64,000 bases of DNA from Streptomyces sp. NBC_01351. GTDB lineage: Bacteria > Actinomycetota > Actinomycetes > Streptomycetales > Streptomycetaceae. The stretch lies in assembly GCF_036237315.1 (NCBI RefSeq), contig NZ_CP108356.1:8391152-8455151 (forward strand). The letters run 5' to 3'. Positions 5,987 through 13,990 of this stretch are shown piece after piece. The notes beneath the pieces were generated by a model. The model did no database searches, had not been told where the DNA came from, and saw only the letters and a list, made by a program, of their open reading frames with translations. The position numbers and the translations under genes were made by a program. How positions within the stretch are numbered: position 1 is the stretch's first letter; each line of letters starts with the position of its first letter.

Positions 5987-6642
5987 TCATCCCGGAATGG
6001 TGTGTTTGGCGGCCTTCTTCGGTTCGCGCCAGGAGATGGTGCTCTCGCCGGTGAGGCGGCGGGCCATAAGGTCGGTCATGGCGATGTGGATCACGGCTTC
6101 GGAGCGGGCGGGAAGGGCTTCGTAGTCGCGGGCCAGGCGCCGGTGGAGCATGAGCCAGCCGTAGGTCCGCTCAACCGCCCACCGCTTGGGAATCGGGGTG
6201 AAGCCCCTGGTCCCGGGGATGCGGGCGGTGATCTCCATATCGATGCCAAGGGCAGCCGCGTGCTCGACGAGGTGCTGGCGGTAGCCGCCGTCGACCCACA
6301 CTTTGTGGATCCCGGGGTGGTCGGCGGCGACCTGGTCCAGGAGCCGGGTGCCGGCGATAGAGTCCTGCACGCTCGCCGCGGTAACCAGCACCGCGAGCAA
6401 GAGGCCGAGCGTGTCGGTGACAATGCTCCGCTTTCTGCCGACGATCTTCTTCCCCGCGTCGATGCCCTGGCTGGAGGCGTGGACGCTGGTGGAGGTCTTG
6501 ACGCTCTGGGCGTCGATCACACAGGCCGATGGCTCGGCGTCCCGGCCTTCCTTCTCCCGCAGGAGTTGCCTGAGCAGGCCGTTGAGCTGAGCGAACACGC
6601 CCTCGTCTGCCCATTTGGCGAAGTAGCCGTAAACCGTGTTCC
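5987..6642 (-). pseudogene. IS5-family transposase, N-terminus missing (left flank of Tn554-like element)
   Basis: Minus-strand frame from NTVYGYFAKWADEGVFAQLN to SWREPKKAAKH. It retains SACVIDAQSVKTS (first Asp), VWVDGGYRQHL (second Asp) and AVERTYGWLMLHRRLARDYE (Glu), but the first third of the protein is missing: homology stops exactly where the TATTAG core of the neighbouring element begins. The IS outer end lies near 5962-5995, where sequence ending TGTTTCATCC resembles the end of the IS half at 11340-11375. It is roughly 70 percent identical by eye to the right-hand half, so the two come from different IS copies. Confidence 0.75.
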
Positions 6643-6663
6643 TATTAGTTACGTGGAATCACG

Positions 6664-6694
6664 CGCCGCAGGATGCAGCTCGTATCCTGCGGCG
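6664..6694. repeat. 11-bp perfect inverted repeat at the element's left end
   Basis: CGCCGCAGGAT and its complement are separated by 9 bases, between the left terminus of the Tn554-like element and its first recombinase gene. It could be a recombinase arm site, an operator or a leader hairpin limiting read-through transcription. No matching hairpin was seen at the right end. Confidence 0.5.
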
Positions 6695-6717
6695 TCCCCA
6701 CGTTCTGAGGAGACCCG

Positions 6718-7788
6718 TTGGGCAGCGCAGTGGTCCTGGAGGAGAAGTGGCCGGTTCTGAGCCGGCATGAGCGGGCGGCCGAGTGGCTGCGAGTGTGGAC
6801 AGATCTCGGACGGGCTCCCCGGACGATCGACGCGTACGCGCGGGGACTCGCCGAGTACCTGCTGGTCTGCGAGCGGGACGGAATCGACCCGGTCGCCGCG
6901 AAGCGTCTGCACGTGGCGGCCTTCGTGAAGGAGCTGAGCTCGCGGCCGAGCCGACGAGGAGGCAACGTCGTCGCTCTGGACTCCGGGGCCGGTCTGGCGA
7001 ATGCGACGCTGCAGCAGCGGCTGGTGCCGGTTCGGCTGTTCTACGACTACCTCATCGAGGAAGGCCTGCGGGAATCGAACCCGGTCGGCCGCGGTCGCTA
7101 CACGCCCAGCAGGAACTTCGGCGGCCACCAGCGCGGGCTGGTGCCCCGGCTTACGAAGCTGCCTTGGATTCCGGGCGAACAGCAGTGGCTCGACCTGCTG
7201 GCCGTCGCGCGTGAAGAGCCCGTACGCAACCGGGTCATGCTCGCTCTCGCCTATGACGCGGCCCTGCGGCGCGAGGAACTGTGCTCGCTGCGGACCGACG
7301 ACCTTGACCCAGCTCACCGGACCCTCCGGATTCGGGCCGAGACGACGAAGACCCGGCGCGAACGGGTCGTCCCCTACTCGGCGGCGACCGGCGTCCTGCT
7401 ATCCGACTACCTCACGCATCGGGCCACAATCAGCCGGGCCCGCGGGCCGCTGTTCTTGTCCGAGTCACGCCGCAACTACGGCCAGCCGCTGACCCTGTGG
7501 ACGTGGTCGAAGGTGATCCGGCGCGTCGCGCTCGCCGCCGACCTGCCGCGGTTCTCGACCCACACCACACGGCATCTGTGCTTGACCGACCTGGCCAGAA
7601 TGGGCTGGGAACTGCACGCCATCGCCTCCTTCGCCGGTCATCGCAGCACCGAATCAACGCTGACCTACATCCATCTCTCGGGCCGCGACCTGGCGGAGAA
7701 ACTGAACCGGGGCATGCAGCAGATCCATTCCTGGCGCGTGGACATGCTGACCCGAGGCGCCCATCCCTCGAAGGTGGTCGCCGAGTGA
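6718..7788 (+). CDS. Tyrosine recombinase, TnpA-like
   Basis: A 356-residue site-specific recombinase. The N-terminal core-binding (SAM-like) domain (about 10-110) is followed by the catalytic domain. The catalytic set is visible: Arg in DAALRREELCSLR (about 183), H-x-x-R in THTTRHLCLTDLARMG (about 281), GHRST (about 306) and the nucleophile Tyr in LTYIHLSGRDL (about 315). TTG 6718 is chosen because GAGGAG lies 5 bases upstream; GTG 6730 is an alternative. The stop overlaps the start of the larger recombinase (GTGA), so the two are made together, as in Tn554-type pairs that act in a joint complex. Confidence 0.85.
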   Translation: MGSAVVLEEKWPVLSRHERAAEWLRVWTDLGRAPRTIDAYARGLAEYLLVCERDGIDPVAAKRLHVAAFVKELSSRPSRRGGNVVALDSGAGLANATLQQRLVPVRLFYDYLIEEGLRESNPVGRGRYTPSRNFGGHQRGLVPRLTKLPWIPGEQQWLDLLAVAREEPVRNRVMLALAYDAALRREELCSLRTDDLDPAHRTLRIRAETTKTRRERVVPYSAATGVLLSDYLTHRATISRARGPLFLSESRRNYGQPLTLWTWSKVIRRVALAADLPRFSTHTTRHLCLTDLARMGWELHAIASFAGHRSTESTLTYIHLSGRDLAEKLNRGMQQIHSWRVDMLTRGAHPSKVVAE

Positions 7789-10124
7789 CCGCCCAACCGA
7801 GAACGGCTGGGCCGACAAGCCGTCCGACCTGGGCATGGTCCGTCGACCTTGCACACTATGACCGTCGCGGCCTGCTCACCGAGGCCGAGTCGGACGTGCT
7901 CCTGACACTCAGCATCGATCAGCTCCGGCGTGACGGCCTCGTCCTCGACGCGATGCCTCTGCGGCCGATCGCGCGGTTGGTGCGGCCGTTGGCGGACGCT
8001 CTCGCCGGCCTGCACTGGCCGCCGGACGACCATCACCAGCGGCGGTTCGCGCGGGACGCGGCCGGGCTCGTGCTGATCCGCTGCGGCGAGCTTCGCCGGG
8101 CCTTCTGGGGCTGGTCGGCAGACGACTGGGTGGAACTGGTGGACACCAGCGGCACCGACTTCCGACGCTCCTGGGGCGGACAGATCGGCCCCAACTCCCG
8201 GCCGTTCGTGATCGCTCTTGCCTACTTGCTCGGCGAGTTCACCGCCTTCGATCGGCTCGGCCGCTTCCAGCGGCCGACCCTGGCCACCCGGGTGTTCGGG
8301 GACGATCCCGTCGACGATGCCGTCCGGCGGATCTGCACGGTTCTGGCCGACTGGGGCTATCGCCGTGACGCCGACAAGCTGGCCGCGGTGATCTGCCAGA
8401 CGCTGCTGCTGAACCGCAGTCCGCTACTGGAGGACCTGTCTACCGAGGCCCTGGCCGCACTGCGCGTCCATCCGGCGATGAGCGGACAGTGGGGCAAGGA
8501 TTTCTACGGCATCCAGCGGGCGGTCGCGGCACTCGGCCACGCGGACCCGCCGCCGTCACGGCAGGAGGCCGGACCGGCCGCGATGGAGGGCGTCCCGGCT
8601 GCCTGGGCGGCTTCGGTCGAGCATTGGTACGCGACATCTACGCTGACTCCGAAGATCCGCAGCGGCTACCGCAGCGTGCTCGCCAAGATCGGTCGCTGGC
8701 TGGCCGCCGAGCACCCCGAGATCACCGAGCCCCGCCAGTGGACCCGACAGACGTGCGCGTCCTGGGTCGCAGCCGTGGACCGCATGAGCGTCGGAGACTT
8801 CTCCCAGTGGACCCGCGGCATGCAGTCGCAGAACCGCCTGGGCAAACCGCTCACGCCGCAGACGAAGTCCGGCTATCTCAAAGTGCCCCGCGCATTTTTC
8901 CGTGACCTGCACGAATGGGAACTGATCCCGCGCAGGTTCGACCCCGCCCATGCCCTGAGAACGCCACGAAGCGTCCGAGCCCTGATGGGCCCGGACCCGC
9001 GGGTGATCGCCGATGACATCTGGGCCAAGCTGCTCTGGGCGGGCCTGAACCTCGAGCCCGGCGACCTGCCGACCGCGGACGGCCGCACCTATCCTGCCGA
9101 GCTGATCCGGGCAATCACGCTGACCTGGCTGTTCGCCGGCCAACGCAGCGACGAGATCGCCCGCCTCCTGGTCGGCTGCATCCGATGGCAGCACGACGGC
9201 CTGCCCATCCCCGGCGACTCCGGAGAGGTCCTCGCTCGCGACGCCGTCTGCCTGCTGAACGTGCCGACCCACAAAACCGGTACCGCGTTCACCAAACCCG
9301 TCGATCCACTCCTGGGCCAGGCCATCGAAGCATGGCAGTCTGTCAGACCCGCTCAGCCGCCGATGCTCGACCGCAAGACCAACGAGTACGCCGACTTCCT
9401 GTTCGCCCACCGCGCCCGCCGGGTCGCAAAGCACTACATCAACACGGCGATCATCCCGATGCTCTGCCGCAAGGCCGGCGTCCCCAACGCCGATGTCCGC
9501 GGCAACATCACCAGCCACCGTGCCCGGTCCACGATCGCCAGCCAGCTCTACAACGCCAAGGAGCCCATGACCCTCTTTGAGCTGCAGGAATGGCTGGGCC
9601 ACCGCACTCCCGAGGCAACCACGCACTACGCGAAGCTCACCCCGAACACCCTAGCCAGGGCTTACAACGACGCCGGCTACTTCGCCAGAAACGTACGCAC
9701 CATCGAAGTCCTCGTCGACCGCGACGCGGTCACCTCCGGCGCCGCCGCCAGCGGTGAACCCTGGCAGTACTACGACCTCGGCCACGGCTGGTGCACCTAC
9801 ACCTTCTTCGAGCAGTGCCAGCACCGCATGGCCTGCGCACGCTGCGACTTCTACACCCCGAAGGTATCCAGCAAGGGCCAACTGCTTGAGGCGAAAGACA
9901 ACCTGCAGAAGATGCTGGCCAATATCCCGCTCACCGACGATGAACGCGCCGCCGTCGACGACGGGCAGACCGCCCTCGACAAGCTCCTCGAACGACTCGC
10001 CGACGTTCCTACCCCCGCAGGGCCGACACCGAGCCAGATCGGCGCCCCCGCGACTGCGACTCTGCTGCCGGTCATCGACCTCACCACCCGCACGCGATCG
10101 TGCCGGCCCGGTGAGCCGTGCTGA
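7785..10124 (+). CDS. Large tyrosine recombinase, TnpB-like, with Cys-rich tail
   Basis: 779 residues from GTG 7785, overlapping the preceding gene by four bases. The first 290 residues are of unknown role. A SAM-like core-binding region follows, then the catalytic domain: Arg in LFAGQRSDEIARLL (about 451), H-x-x-R in TSHRARSTIASQL (about 578), WLGHRTPEATTHYAKL with His/Arg and the nucleophile Tyr (about 613). The tail has HGWCTYTFFEQCQHRMACARC, a four-cysteine cluster (about 669-687) likely binding zinc, a trait of Tn554 TnpB-type proteins. At nearly 780 residues it is longer than Tn554 TnpB (about 630), mostly through the N-terminal extension. Confidence 0.85.
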   Translation: MTAQPRTAGPTSRPTWAWSVDLAHYDRRGLLTEAESDVLLTLSIDQLRRDGLVLDAMPLRPIARLVRPLADALAGLHWPPDDHHQRRFARDAAGLVLIRCGELRRAFWGWSADDWVELVDTSGTDFRRSWGGQIGPNSRPFVIALAYLLGEFTAFDRLGRFQRPTLATRVFGDDPVDDAVRRICTVLADWGYRRDADKLAAVICQTLLLNRSPLLEDLSTEALAALRVHPAMSGQWGKDFYGIQRAVAALGHADPPPSRQEAGPAAMEGVPAAWAASVEHWYATSTLTPKIRSGYRSVLAKIGRWLAAEHPEITEPRQWTRQTCASWVAAVDRMSVGDFSQWTRGMQSQNRLGKPLTPQTKSGYLKVPRAFFRDLHEWELIPRRFDPAHALRTPRSVRALMGPDPRVIADDIWAKLLWAGLNLEPGDLPTADGRTYPAELIRAITLTWLFAGQRSDEIARLLVGCIRWQHDGLPIPGDSGEVLARDAVCLLNVPTHKTGTAFTKPVDPLLGQAIEAWQSVRPAQPPMLDRKTNEYADFLFAHRARRVAKHYINTAIIPMLCRKAGVPNADVRGNITSHRARSTIASQLYNAKEPMTLFELQEWLGHRTPEATTHYAKLTPNTLARAYNDAGYFARNVRTIEVLVDRDAVTSGAAASGEPWQYYDLGHGWCTYTFFEQCQHRMACARCDFYTPKVSSKGQLLEAKDNLQKMLANIPLTDDERAAVDDGQTALDKLLERLADVPTPAGPTPSQIGAPATATLLPVIDLTTRTRSCRPGEPC

Positions 10125-10192
10125 GGACCCTTCGAACTTTATCCAGGTGTGGGCCAGCACGAGAAGATGCCAGAGTCACCGTCGTGACCTTG

Positions 10193-10672
10193 ATGAACGT
10201 GCTCGTCGACTTCGCCCGGACCGGCCGTATCGGACCGCTTCACTGCGGCATGTCCCTGACCCAGGCCGAGGATCTCCTGGGTCCAGGACGCCCACACCCC
10301 GCCATCCGGATGAGACCGGACATTGACGGCTACCCCCACGCCTGGAACGGCCTGGAGCTGTCCATCACCCAACGCCTTGTAAGCGGAATCTCGATCAGTC
10401 TCCGGCCAGGCTCGACAACCATGTTGCCGCCCCTAGTCTTGCCAGACTCAGAGTCCTACCCGTCCACAGTGCTCCGAGAAGACCTGATCGCTGGCCTTGA
10501 CGCAGTCGACTGCCGCCACGACATCAACGACCGCCTCACGTTCGGAGAGCAATCCAGCATCCTGACCCAACCCGCCAACGTCTGCGCGGTGTTCTTCACG
10601 CCTGGCCGTGACGACCACGTGCCCCATCCTGAACACCTCTACCTCGGCGTGATCCACAAGCACACCGCTTGA
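10193..10672 (+). CDS. Cargo protein of the Tn554-like element, unknown function
   Basis: 159 residues from ATG 10193 (no clear RBS; a nearby GTG at 10183 is possible). The opening DFARTGRIGPLHCGMSLTQA, followed by EDLLGPG, resembles a widespread soluble family beginning 'G-x-h-GPh-x-GMS-x-x-x-h-x-x-hLGxP'. I know no function for it. No signal peptide, membrane segment or enzymatic motif is visible. It lies between tnpB and the right end, where Tn554 family elements carry passenger genes, so it is cargo by position; it is not tnpC-like. Confidence 0.65.
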   Translation: MNVLVDFARTGRIGPLHCGMSLTQAEDLLGPGRPHPAIRMRPDIDGYPHAWNGLELSITQRLVSGISISLRPGSTTMLPPLVLPDSESYPSTVLREDLIAGLDAVDCRHDINDRLTFGEQSSILTQPANVCAVFFTPGRDDHVPHPEHLYLGVIHKHTA

Positions 10673-10697
10673 CATCTTTGATTCCACAGAATATTAG

Positions 10698-11323
10698 GGA
10701 ACACCGTCTACGCGTACTTCGCGCGCTGGCAGGAGGAAGGTGTCTTCGACCAGCTCAACAGTCTCCTGCGCCGGCAAGTCCGCAGGCAGGAGGGCCGAGG
10801 CGACGAACCGACCGCATGCGTCATCGACTCCCAGAGCATCAAAACCTCCACCGACGTCCCCGCCTCCGGGCAGGGCATCGACGCCGGCAAGAAGATCGTG
10901 GGGCGGAAGCGGAGCATCGTCATCGACACTGTCGGACTCCTCCTCGGAGTCCTGGTCACCGCGGCAAGCGTGCAGGACTCGATCGCCGGCCAAACCCTCA
11001 TCGAGCGGATCGCTGCCGAGCATCCCACTGTCCGCAAGACCTGGGTCGACGGCGGCTACCGCCAGCACCTCGTCGGGCACGCCGCCACCCTCGGCATCGA
11101 CATGCACATCGTCCGCCGCGACCCCGCCACCAGGGGATTTACGGTCCTGCCCCGCCGTTGGACCGTCGAACGCACGCTGGGATGGCTGATGAACCACCGC
11201 CGTCTGGCCCGCGACTACGAAGCCCACCCGCACCGCTCCGAAGCCATGATCCACCTCGCGATGATCAACCTCATGACCCGCAGACTCACCGCCGAATCCA
11301 CCCCCACATGGCGCGGCGCATGA
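10698..11323 (+). pseudogene. IS5-family transposase, N-terminus missing (right flank of Tn554-like element)
   Basis: Plus-strand frame beginning NTVYAYFARWQEEGVFDQLN and running through TACVIDSQSIKTS, KTWVDGGYRQHL and TVERTLGWLMNHRRLARDYE to TPTWRGA. The Asp, Asp and Glu catalytic positions are kept. It starts at the same codon as the opposite-strand half on the left flank and likewise lacks the N-terminal third. The IS outer end is at about 11345-11375 (GATGAAACAACGGGATGAAA), before CTTAG-like sequence. Confidence 0.75.
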
Positions 11324-12250: not shown

Positions 12251-13898
12251 TCAGGGGCTCACGAGGATGCGTTGGCGGAGGAGGTCGAGGTTCGCCCGGC
12301 CGTAGCCCATCCGTTTGAGGAGCTTGACGCGGGTGACGTGGCCTTCGACCTGGCCCGAGCTCCATGGTGTGGACAGTCCCGCAGTGACGGCGTCGAAGTC
12401 GCGTCGCATACCGCTGACCAGGGAATGCAGGGCTGGGAGGTCGTCGGCCAGGACTCGGTCCATCCATTCGGGGAGTTGATCTCCCCGGAGGTGGTGCAGC
12501 ATTTCAGCGAAGTCGTGGACGTGACGTGCCGCGGCGTCCAGATGAGGACAGACCGTGCGGATCTCCTTCAGTTCCGCAGCATCCGCGGGGGCGAGATGCT
12601 GCGGGTTCGTCATGATCCAACGGACGACGCGTCGGGGTTTCGGGGCCGGCCTCGGTTGAGGCTGGGGCACCCGCTGCTGCTTCCGCCCTGGTTGGCGGGG
12701 TGGTTTGTAGGTCCGGAAGTAGCGGCGGACGCATTGGATGCTCCCGGTGAAACCGCGCTCGCCCAGTTCCCGGTGAAGCTGGCGAATGTCGTGACAGCCG
12801 TCCAGCCAGCGGGCGTGGAGATACTCCTTGTGCTCGTCCAGTCCGGATAGGCGGCCGGTGGCTTTGGCCAGAAGTTCGTCGAGGCTGCCAGCACGGGCGA
12901 AGCGGCGGACGGTGGAGTGGTCCAGCCGCAGTGCCCGGCCGATCGCCGCCAGGGATTTCCCCTCGGCCAGCAGCACCTGGACCGACGCGTAACGCTCGGC
13001 CGTGCGGGCCACCAGGCGCCGGGGCCGACCCAGCACGTCAAGCGTGCCGTCGGGTGGAACGAACGGCAGGGCCACCCCCTTGGGCAGCTCCGTCGTGACC
13101 GGGGTTTCGACGGTCTCCTCCGCCATGACCAGGGACTCCGCGAACGCGTCCCGGATACATCCGTGGTGAGAGCCGACCGTTCTCTCTAGGGCCTCGGCGA
13201 TGTTCCGCCACAGGTGCCAGGCATCGGCGACCTGCATCGCCTGCGGGCGCCGGTTCGGGCCGCGTAGGCCGGCCCGGTCCCGGCAGATGACCTCCACTTC
13301 CGGGTGGTGGCGAAGCCATGCGGCCAGCGGTCCAGCGTCCCGGCCGGGCAGGACGTCGACGGGGCGGCGGGCTTCCAGGTCGACCAGGAGGGTCGCGTAG
13401 GAGCCGCCCTTGCGTAGAGCGAAGTCGTCCACTCCCAGAAACCTGACCGCGCCGACCGGCTGCTGAGGAACCGAGCGGAGCAGATCCAGCAGGGCGTCCT
13501 TGGCGATGCGAATCCCGAGCAGTGCGGCCAGGCGGGCGCCGGGCCGGCCCGCCAGGGTCAGGGCGATCGACGAGAGCATCGATCGCAGGAGCGTGGTCTG
13601 TCGGGTATGCGGTCTGGTCAGCCCTGCGACCTGCTCGGCGAACGTGACGGCCGGACACCGATCGTTCGGGCACCTGAAGCGCCGCACGACCAGTTCGATC
13701 ACCACCGGCCTGCCGGCGACCGGCACGTCGCCGAGCCTGCGGACATACCGTCCGTGCACCCGCCACGACGGCATCCCGCACCCCGGGCATCTCACCGGCA
13801 AGGTCTGGCACCCCCGCGCGCAAGGTGACGACGCCATCCGTTCGCTTGATCGACTTGACGACAACACCGGACGGATGCGGCAACAACCGCCCCAACAC
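12251..13898 (-). pseudogene. ISL3-family transposase with N-terminal frameshift
   Basis: The long minus frame carries the ISL3 layout: zinc-binding RCPGCGMPSWRVHGRYVRRL, DDE catalytic core (LGVDDFALRKGGSYATLLVD, VICRDRAGL, WSSGQVEGHVTRVKLLKRMG) and an internal HTH (LAAIGRALRLDHSTVRRFAR). The expected N-terminus, LGRLLPHPSGVVVKSIKRTD from GTG about 13898, is in another frame. The two join at a G-run near 13818 where one base seems lost or gained. A shorter product from an internal start would lack the first 30 residues. Either a recently inactivated copy or a sequence error; terminal repeats could not be fixed. Confidence 0.75.
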
Positions 13899-13990
13899 CC
13901 CTGAACCGGACACCCGAAGACTGCCCAGCTCAACCCTGCGACATCACAAGATCCCCGACAGAGCCCGTAATTCACCAGGGTCTCGCGGCG

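Follow-up and report, generated by a model that had tools for sequence, protein, structure and literature searches.

The window analysed here comprises the final 64 kb of the chromosome contig C1 (8.46 Mb), in a genome of three contigs. It contains a mobile element, copy A, at positions 6643..10691 on the plus strand (4,049 bp including a terminal hexamer), and two identical copies, B and C, are found on contig C2 (232,721 bp). The element opens with the hexamer TATTAG (6643..6648, plus strand; family pattern TANNAG), which is followed by the left terminal repeat TTACGTGGAATC (6649..6660, plus), and closes with the right terminal repeat GATTCCACAGAA (10680..10691, plus). Between the repeats lie three plus-strand genes: tnpA (6718..7788; 356 aa) and tnpB (7785..10124; 779 aa), both tyrosine recombinase genes matching Pfam Phage_integrase, and orf3 (10118..10672; 184 aa), whose product matched no family among the Pfam and NCBIfam profiles. 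Among the loci examined, orf3 is present only in copies A, B and C and in the relatives L090 and L196.

The two recombinases carry candidate catalytic residues, picked by eye, that are invariant in the alignments: R184, K211, H282, R285, H308 and Y317 of TnpA in nine sequences, and R454, K497, H578, R581, H606 and Y615 of TnpB in 41. The recombinase core of TnpB starts at about residue 268 and is preceded by a helical extension (residues 1-265, encoded at 7785..8579 on the plus strand), which we propose below as a target-choice domain. Past the catalytic domain, TnpB residues 660-690 (window ~9762-9854) include a conserved Cys/His cluster (C670, C678, H680, C684 and C687), a possible zinc finger. 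Two further features of the window may be mentioned. A long minus-strand open reading frame at 12251-13975, by eye an ISL3-type transposase gene, lies 1.6 kb from the element and retains, uninterrupted, the target motif of the ISL3-class relatives; and the final 24,069 bases (39932-64000) are identical to the left end of the chromosome contig in inverted form and thus make up its terminal repeat.

Flanking transposase genes and their uninterrupted relatives

Copy A lies head-to-head between the 3' parts of two IS5-family (IS5_3) transposase genes. The left one, IS-L (5987..6642, minus strand), begins in the W codon preceding NTVY and reads NTVYGYFAKW from 6642 downwards; the right one, IS-R (10698..11323, plus strand), reads NTVYAYFARW. 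Both exceed the cut-off of 110 bits for the IS5_3 profile NF033580 (128.4 bits for IS-L, 136.6 for IS-R), with matches that start at profile positions 60 and 59, respectively. They are two different genes, because their identity is only 75.6% (644 alignment columns, including a few within the terminal repeats of the element). These results bear out the initial annotation, which had placed the element between 3' parts of two different IS5 transposase genes, both cut before NTVY. Its report of TATTAG at both junctions, with inverted outer arms, was likewise accurate: the right-hand TATTAG occupies 10692..10697 (plus strand), and the arms are GTGTTCC at 6636..6642 (the IS-L target arm, no strand assigned) and GGAACAC at 10698..10704.

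The same annotation held that both N-terminal halves are missing, and this is directly observed. Searches of the 8.9-Mb assembly with the N-terminal parts of close uninterrupted relatives found no orphan N-terminal part of IS-L or IS-R. The sole close match is an uninterrupted IS copy at C1:8020124 (76% identical to the IS-L query and 96% to the IS-R query), intact at the target codon and frameshifted further along.

Uninterrupted relatives make the empty target site visible. The closest to IS-L are L214-L217 (86-90% DNA identity), and the closest to IS-R are L202 and L203 (89-90%) and the copy at 8020139 in the same genome (95%). Their alignment to IS-L or IS-R begins with the base immediately past the hexamer; the translation is ..LPHDFPH/W/NTVYGYF in the IS-L relatives and ..LPHDYPH/W/NTVYAYF in the IS-R relatives, and all of these closest sites have the core CGCACT at the hexamer position. 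Among the matches listed, this core occurs in four of the seven loci matched to IS-L and five of the six matched to IS-R; more distant relatives have other cores, and TATTAG is the core in none of the uninterrupted relatives examined. The right-hand TATTAG of copy A is the same hexamer as that at the element's left end, where TATTAG or TANNAG is found across many different targets. Since the closest empty sites carry CGCACT, the right-hand TATTAG came with the element and not with the target, and the earlier view of TATTAG as a target core has to be abandoned. The IS5 target itself is roughly palindromic (GACTACC, core, GGAACAC).

Relatives, their targets and the mode of insertion

A tnpB search of 392 genus genomes gave a match in 108, many of them fragments, and a scan of species genomes contributed the best 80 of 95 confirmed loci. 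Together these searches produced 109 loci (L058-L166), or 96 after the removal of 13 repeats (eight with identical junctions, four judged the same by matched segments, and L158, from the same genome as L087). A readable flank, that is at least one flank of at least 20 bases, was available for 72 of the 96. Targets were assigned by aligning flank frames to each other at the junction and by profile scans of representatives; this gave an assignment for 61 of the 72 and none for the other 11, with seven loci assigned by eye (L076, L086, L117, L120, L124, L134 and L164) and L112 from its left side only. Loci were called actinobacterial-type if tnpA was at least 72% identical or, where tnpA was absent, if tnpB was at least 60% identical. 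Two observations accompany this sample: 611 plasmid records, many of them enterobacterial, have a tnpB match, and L091, L094, L095, L096 and L118 are contigs of 3.46-3.52 kb with little in them beyond one element, which is what an assembly broken by several copies should give.

Readable flanks were available for 55 actinobacterial-type loci, and in 45 of them the target is a transposase or recombinase gene: ISL3 (19), IS5 (nine), a second IS5 site at VLPR/RWVVER (three), IS3 (six), Tn3 (five), tyrosine recombinase (two) and IS256 (one). The rest are DUF6233 genes (six), which are not known to belong to mobile elements, and loci without an assignment (four). Each target class is hit at a fixed codon, IS5 at two. 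In profile scans the two sides of one insertion meet at Tn3 positions 846/849 (L097) and IS3 positions 234/236 (L128), and sides from different loci meet in IS5_3 at 55 (L087, left) and 58 (L089, right) and in UmuC at 38 (L132) and 41 (L154); the L185 relative, on an Escherichia coli plasmid, sits at the same umuC codon as L154. Among more distant relatives the targets are parB, comM, umuC and the gene of a YhcG nuclease, with a Mu-type transposase gene as a possible target in one further case (a weak match, below cut-off). It holds broadly that one clade uses one conserved codon of one widespread gene.

Plain insertions at the fixed IS5 codon are seen in copy C, L087, L089, L090 and L110, with one-sided evidence for the same codon in L137, L085, L088, L092 and L059. 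L087 and L089 are oriented one way and copy C, L090 and L110 the other, with the hexamer on the element's left in all; ISL3, IS3 and Tn3 targets are likewise entered in either direction. Thus, the survey of homologous insertion sites that the initial annotation had called for finds relatives recurring at the same IS5 codon in both orientations. Chance can be rejected for the shared cut codon, because independent relatives sit at it. The suggestion of a fixed site inside IS5 transposase genes was therefore sound, although IS5 is just one of several families hit. The further suggestion, an element specialised on other mobile elements, describes the 45 loci above but not the whole family: distant relatives in umuC, comM and parB restrict the specialisation to a part of it, and the preference for transposase targets marks the actinobacterial part.

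No target duplication is seen. In 28 of the 34 loci with two flanks, the joined flanks restore an in-frame reading with no base gained or lost, as judged from the three longest frames shown. Four loci do not restore the frame (L093, L108, L112 and L139), and for L060 and L111 the three frames shown do not include the joined one. At L093 (the same locus as L058) two diverged elements abut, one having the inversely oriented tnpB of the other as its right flank. We suggest that the element leaves its site as a circle closed by a 6-bp joint, and that insertion proceeds by strand exchange over a 6-bp core, here at a single conserved codon in IS5_3 transposase genes. Of the two ends, one (usually the left) would retain the element's hexamer (TANNAG) and the other would be left with the 6 bp of the target, without target duplication. 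Such a hexamer bias could be the outcome of strand exchange across a 6-bp heteroduplex if one product were strongly favoured, and the near-palindromic IS5 target may allow both orientations.

Origin of copy A

The copies on C2 provide the context for the chimeric flanks of copy A. The left flank of copy C is a third IS5 transposase gene, starting RTVWGF; copies B and C have a common right flank, a minus-strand IS5 transposase N-terminal part ending RALPADYPP. When joined, the flanks of copy C give a single open frame of 300 aa (...RALPADYPP/WRTVWGFMARW), so that copy C is a plain insertion. Copies A and B have IS-L as common left flank for about 13-14 kb with one difference, after which homology decays. 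Copy B, with IS-L on its left and the N-terminal part of copy C's target on its right, is a recombinant. Furthermore, C2 has terminal inverted repeats (1-104115 and 128609-232721; 104.1 kb, 99.995% identical) whose inner ends are at copies B and C, an arrangement consistent with recombination via the element. C2 matches the chromosome ends (99.9%) over its outer 2 kb, and together with the terminal repeats this suggests that C2 is a linear replicon.

An insertion in IS-L would have supplied the left end of copy A. Its right end would go back to a second insertion, in IS-R and of opposite orientation, which would have left the hexamer on the right side. A crossover within the identical 4-kb element would then have joined the two 3' parts, with loss of both N-terminal parts, in an order of events that we infer. 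Either such a crossover or an inversion between opposite copies would yield an element between two C-terminal parts and a reciprocal element between two N-terminal parts; this reciprocal product is missing in this genome. A parallel is found in L139 (Kutzneria buriramensis), where the element lies between head-to-head C-terminal parts of two Tn3 transposase genes, as in copy A; its left junction has GCTACCT as in L098 and its right junction TGCTGC-GATACCT as in L149. Recombination between two insertions, as the initial annotation had supposed, is the best explanation because A and B, and B and C, share flanks, the N-terminal parts are lost and L139 has the same double-3' layout. Taken as a whole, the evidence makes it very probable that we are dealing with a site-specific transposon that has two tyrosine recombinases and that copy A arose by recombination between two insertions. 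The hexamer on the right of copy A counts against the recombinant reading, as this is a rare arrangement. It recurs in L191 and L195 (Rhodococcus plasmids), where, in mirror image of the usual order, the target core is on the left and a hexamer on the right; this hexamer, CTATCA, departs from the TANNAG pattern, so that the comparison with copy A is imperfect.

The right-hand hexamer would be produced directly if the recombinase had joined a tandem-copy joint, or a circle joint, at IS-L with an uninterrupted IS-R on another replicon. This translocation needs no earlier insertion in IS-R and yields the exact order 3'L-TATTAG-element-TATTAG-3'R in one event; chromosome and plasmid do have a long near-identical tract adjoining the element, and closely spaced copies exist elsewhere (L063 and L093). 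However, it requires a tandem copy at IS-L, of which none is seen, and L139, with its normal right core, is explained by plain recombination of two insertions. We consider a one-step origin unlikely. A false join by the assembler is a much weaker candidate. Three identical 4-kb copies, two of them with left flanks of about 13-14 kb differing once, might mislead an assembler, but re-pairing their sides cannot restore the N-terminal parts, of which the assembly yielded no orphan copy, and the position of the right TATTAG, at the edge of the element, does not depend on any internal join; an artefact is thus very improbable. A single insertion into an older head-to-head fusion of two IS5 3' parts would account for both parts without recombination inside the element, yet it is the most far-fetched reading, since the fusion point would have to equal the target codon in both genes and carry a TATTAG absent from the relatives examined.

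Target choice by TnpB and comparison with known systems

The sequences of the relatives suggest which part of the element reads the target. The target class of a locus was predicted by its nearest neighbour in 39 of 40 cases with TnpB residues 1-265 (the exception being L146), in 36 of 40 with the C-terminal part of TnpB, and in 31 of 40 with TnpA. Among the plasmid loci, 18 of which were fetched, the target class agreed with TnpB in all 15 that could be classed. The target label changes seven times, the minimum, on the trees of both TnpB parts and 11 times on the TnpA tree (minimum six); the Tn3 class is not one clade, with two changes on the TnpB N-terminal tree and three on the C-terminal one.

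Because the C-terminal part also separates the targets, shared descent explains part of this link. It might explain all of it, with another part of TnpB or TnpA reading the target, a view to which the equally low number of changes on the C-terminal tree and its 36 correct neighbours lend weight. Against it, N-terminal parts are more alike inside a target class at equal C-terminal identity (0.75-0.80; median 0.59 in 64 pairs within classes vs 0.41 in 389 between classes). In addition, when close N-terminal neighbours are removed, the C-terminal part predicts 29 of 40 targets and the N-terminal part 38 of 40, although this filter was set on N-terminal identity, which limits the test. Ancestry alone is thus possible, if doubtful, and covariation indicates that the N-terminal extension of TnpB probably chooses the target.

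The element system is real and recurrent. On balance we lean, by a modest degree, towards a widespread family of two-recombinase transposons with an interchangeable target-reading N-terminal domain in TnpB, a domain that would have been readapted on several occasions in Actinobacteria, always to a conserved codon but in another transposase family on each occasion; other transposons would then provide the landing pads and be inactivated by the insertions. Few bacterial genes are as common or as widely shared as those for transposases, and the host can dispense with them; a transposon that reads their conserved codons would therefore find harmless landing pads on most replicons and silence competitors. 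If the N-terminal extension sets the target, nature has provided in this family a series of site-specific recombinases that differ in target and share a catalytic core. Identical copies of the element also act as recombination points, coinciding here with the inner boundaries of the 104-kb terminal repeats of C2.

Among known systems, the Tn554 family (Tn554, Tn558 and others) has adjacent tyrosine recombinase genes tnpA and tnpB and a third gene, tnpC, and inserts site-specifically into a gene, with att554 in radC. The present element shares the adjacent tnpA-tnpB pair and site-specific insertion into genes, and like Tn554 its family makes no target-site duplication, as the in-frame flanks of 28 of 34 loci show. 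Over 340 alignment columns, TnpA shares 25% identity (E 2e-26) with the first of the recombinases in L200, an Enterococcus plasmid element beside a JAB-domain (radC-like) gene, which we take to be Tn554-type from its gene order and this neighbour; the pairwise match of TnpB to the second recombinase of L200 is not significant (E 0.018). In contrast to Tn554, the family occurs in both orientations, its targets are mostly transposase genes, with no radC among the 61 assigned, and it lacks tnpC: relatives 3.48-3.51 kb in length have a right repeat that overlaps the stop codon predicted for tnpB, so that elements of ~3.48 kb fit only tnpA and tnpB. The label Tn554-like in the initial annotation is thus apt for TnpA homology and the lack of duplication, but not for tnpC or the radC site; the element appears to work like Tn554 while departing from it in these two traits.

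RIT elements (recombinase in trio) have three tyrosine recombinase genes in a row. The likeness is that tyrosine recombinases of different kinds are neighbours; the present element, however, has two such genes and a third open reading frame without a family match. Unlike conjugative transposons of the Tn916/Tn1549 type, it has fixed codon targets and a near-constant hexamer, and its 4 kb leave no room for conjugation genes. A last comparison is with the relatives inserted in umuC (L132; L154; L185, from Escherichia coli; and L199, from Comamonas), which belong to the same two-gene family and likewise use one fixed codon of one conserved gene, although that gene encodes a Y-family polymerase and is not a mobile-element gene.
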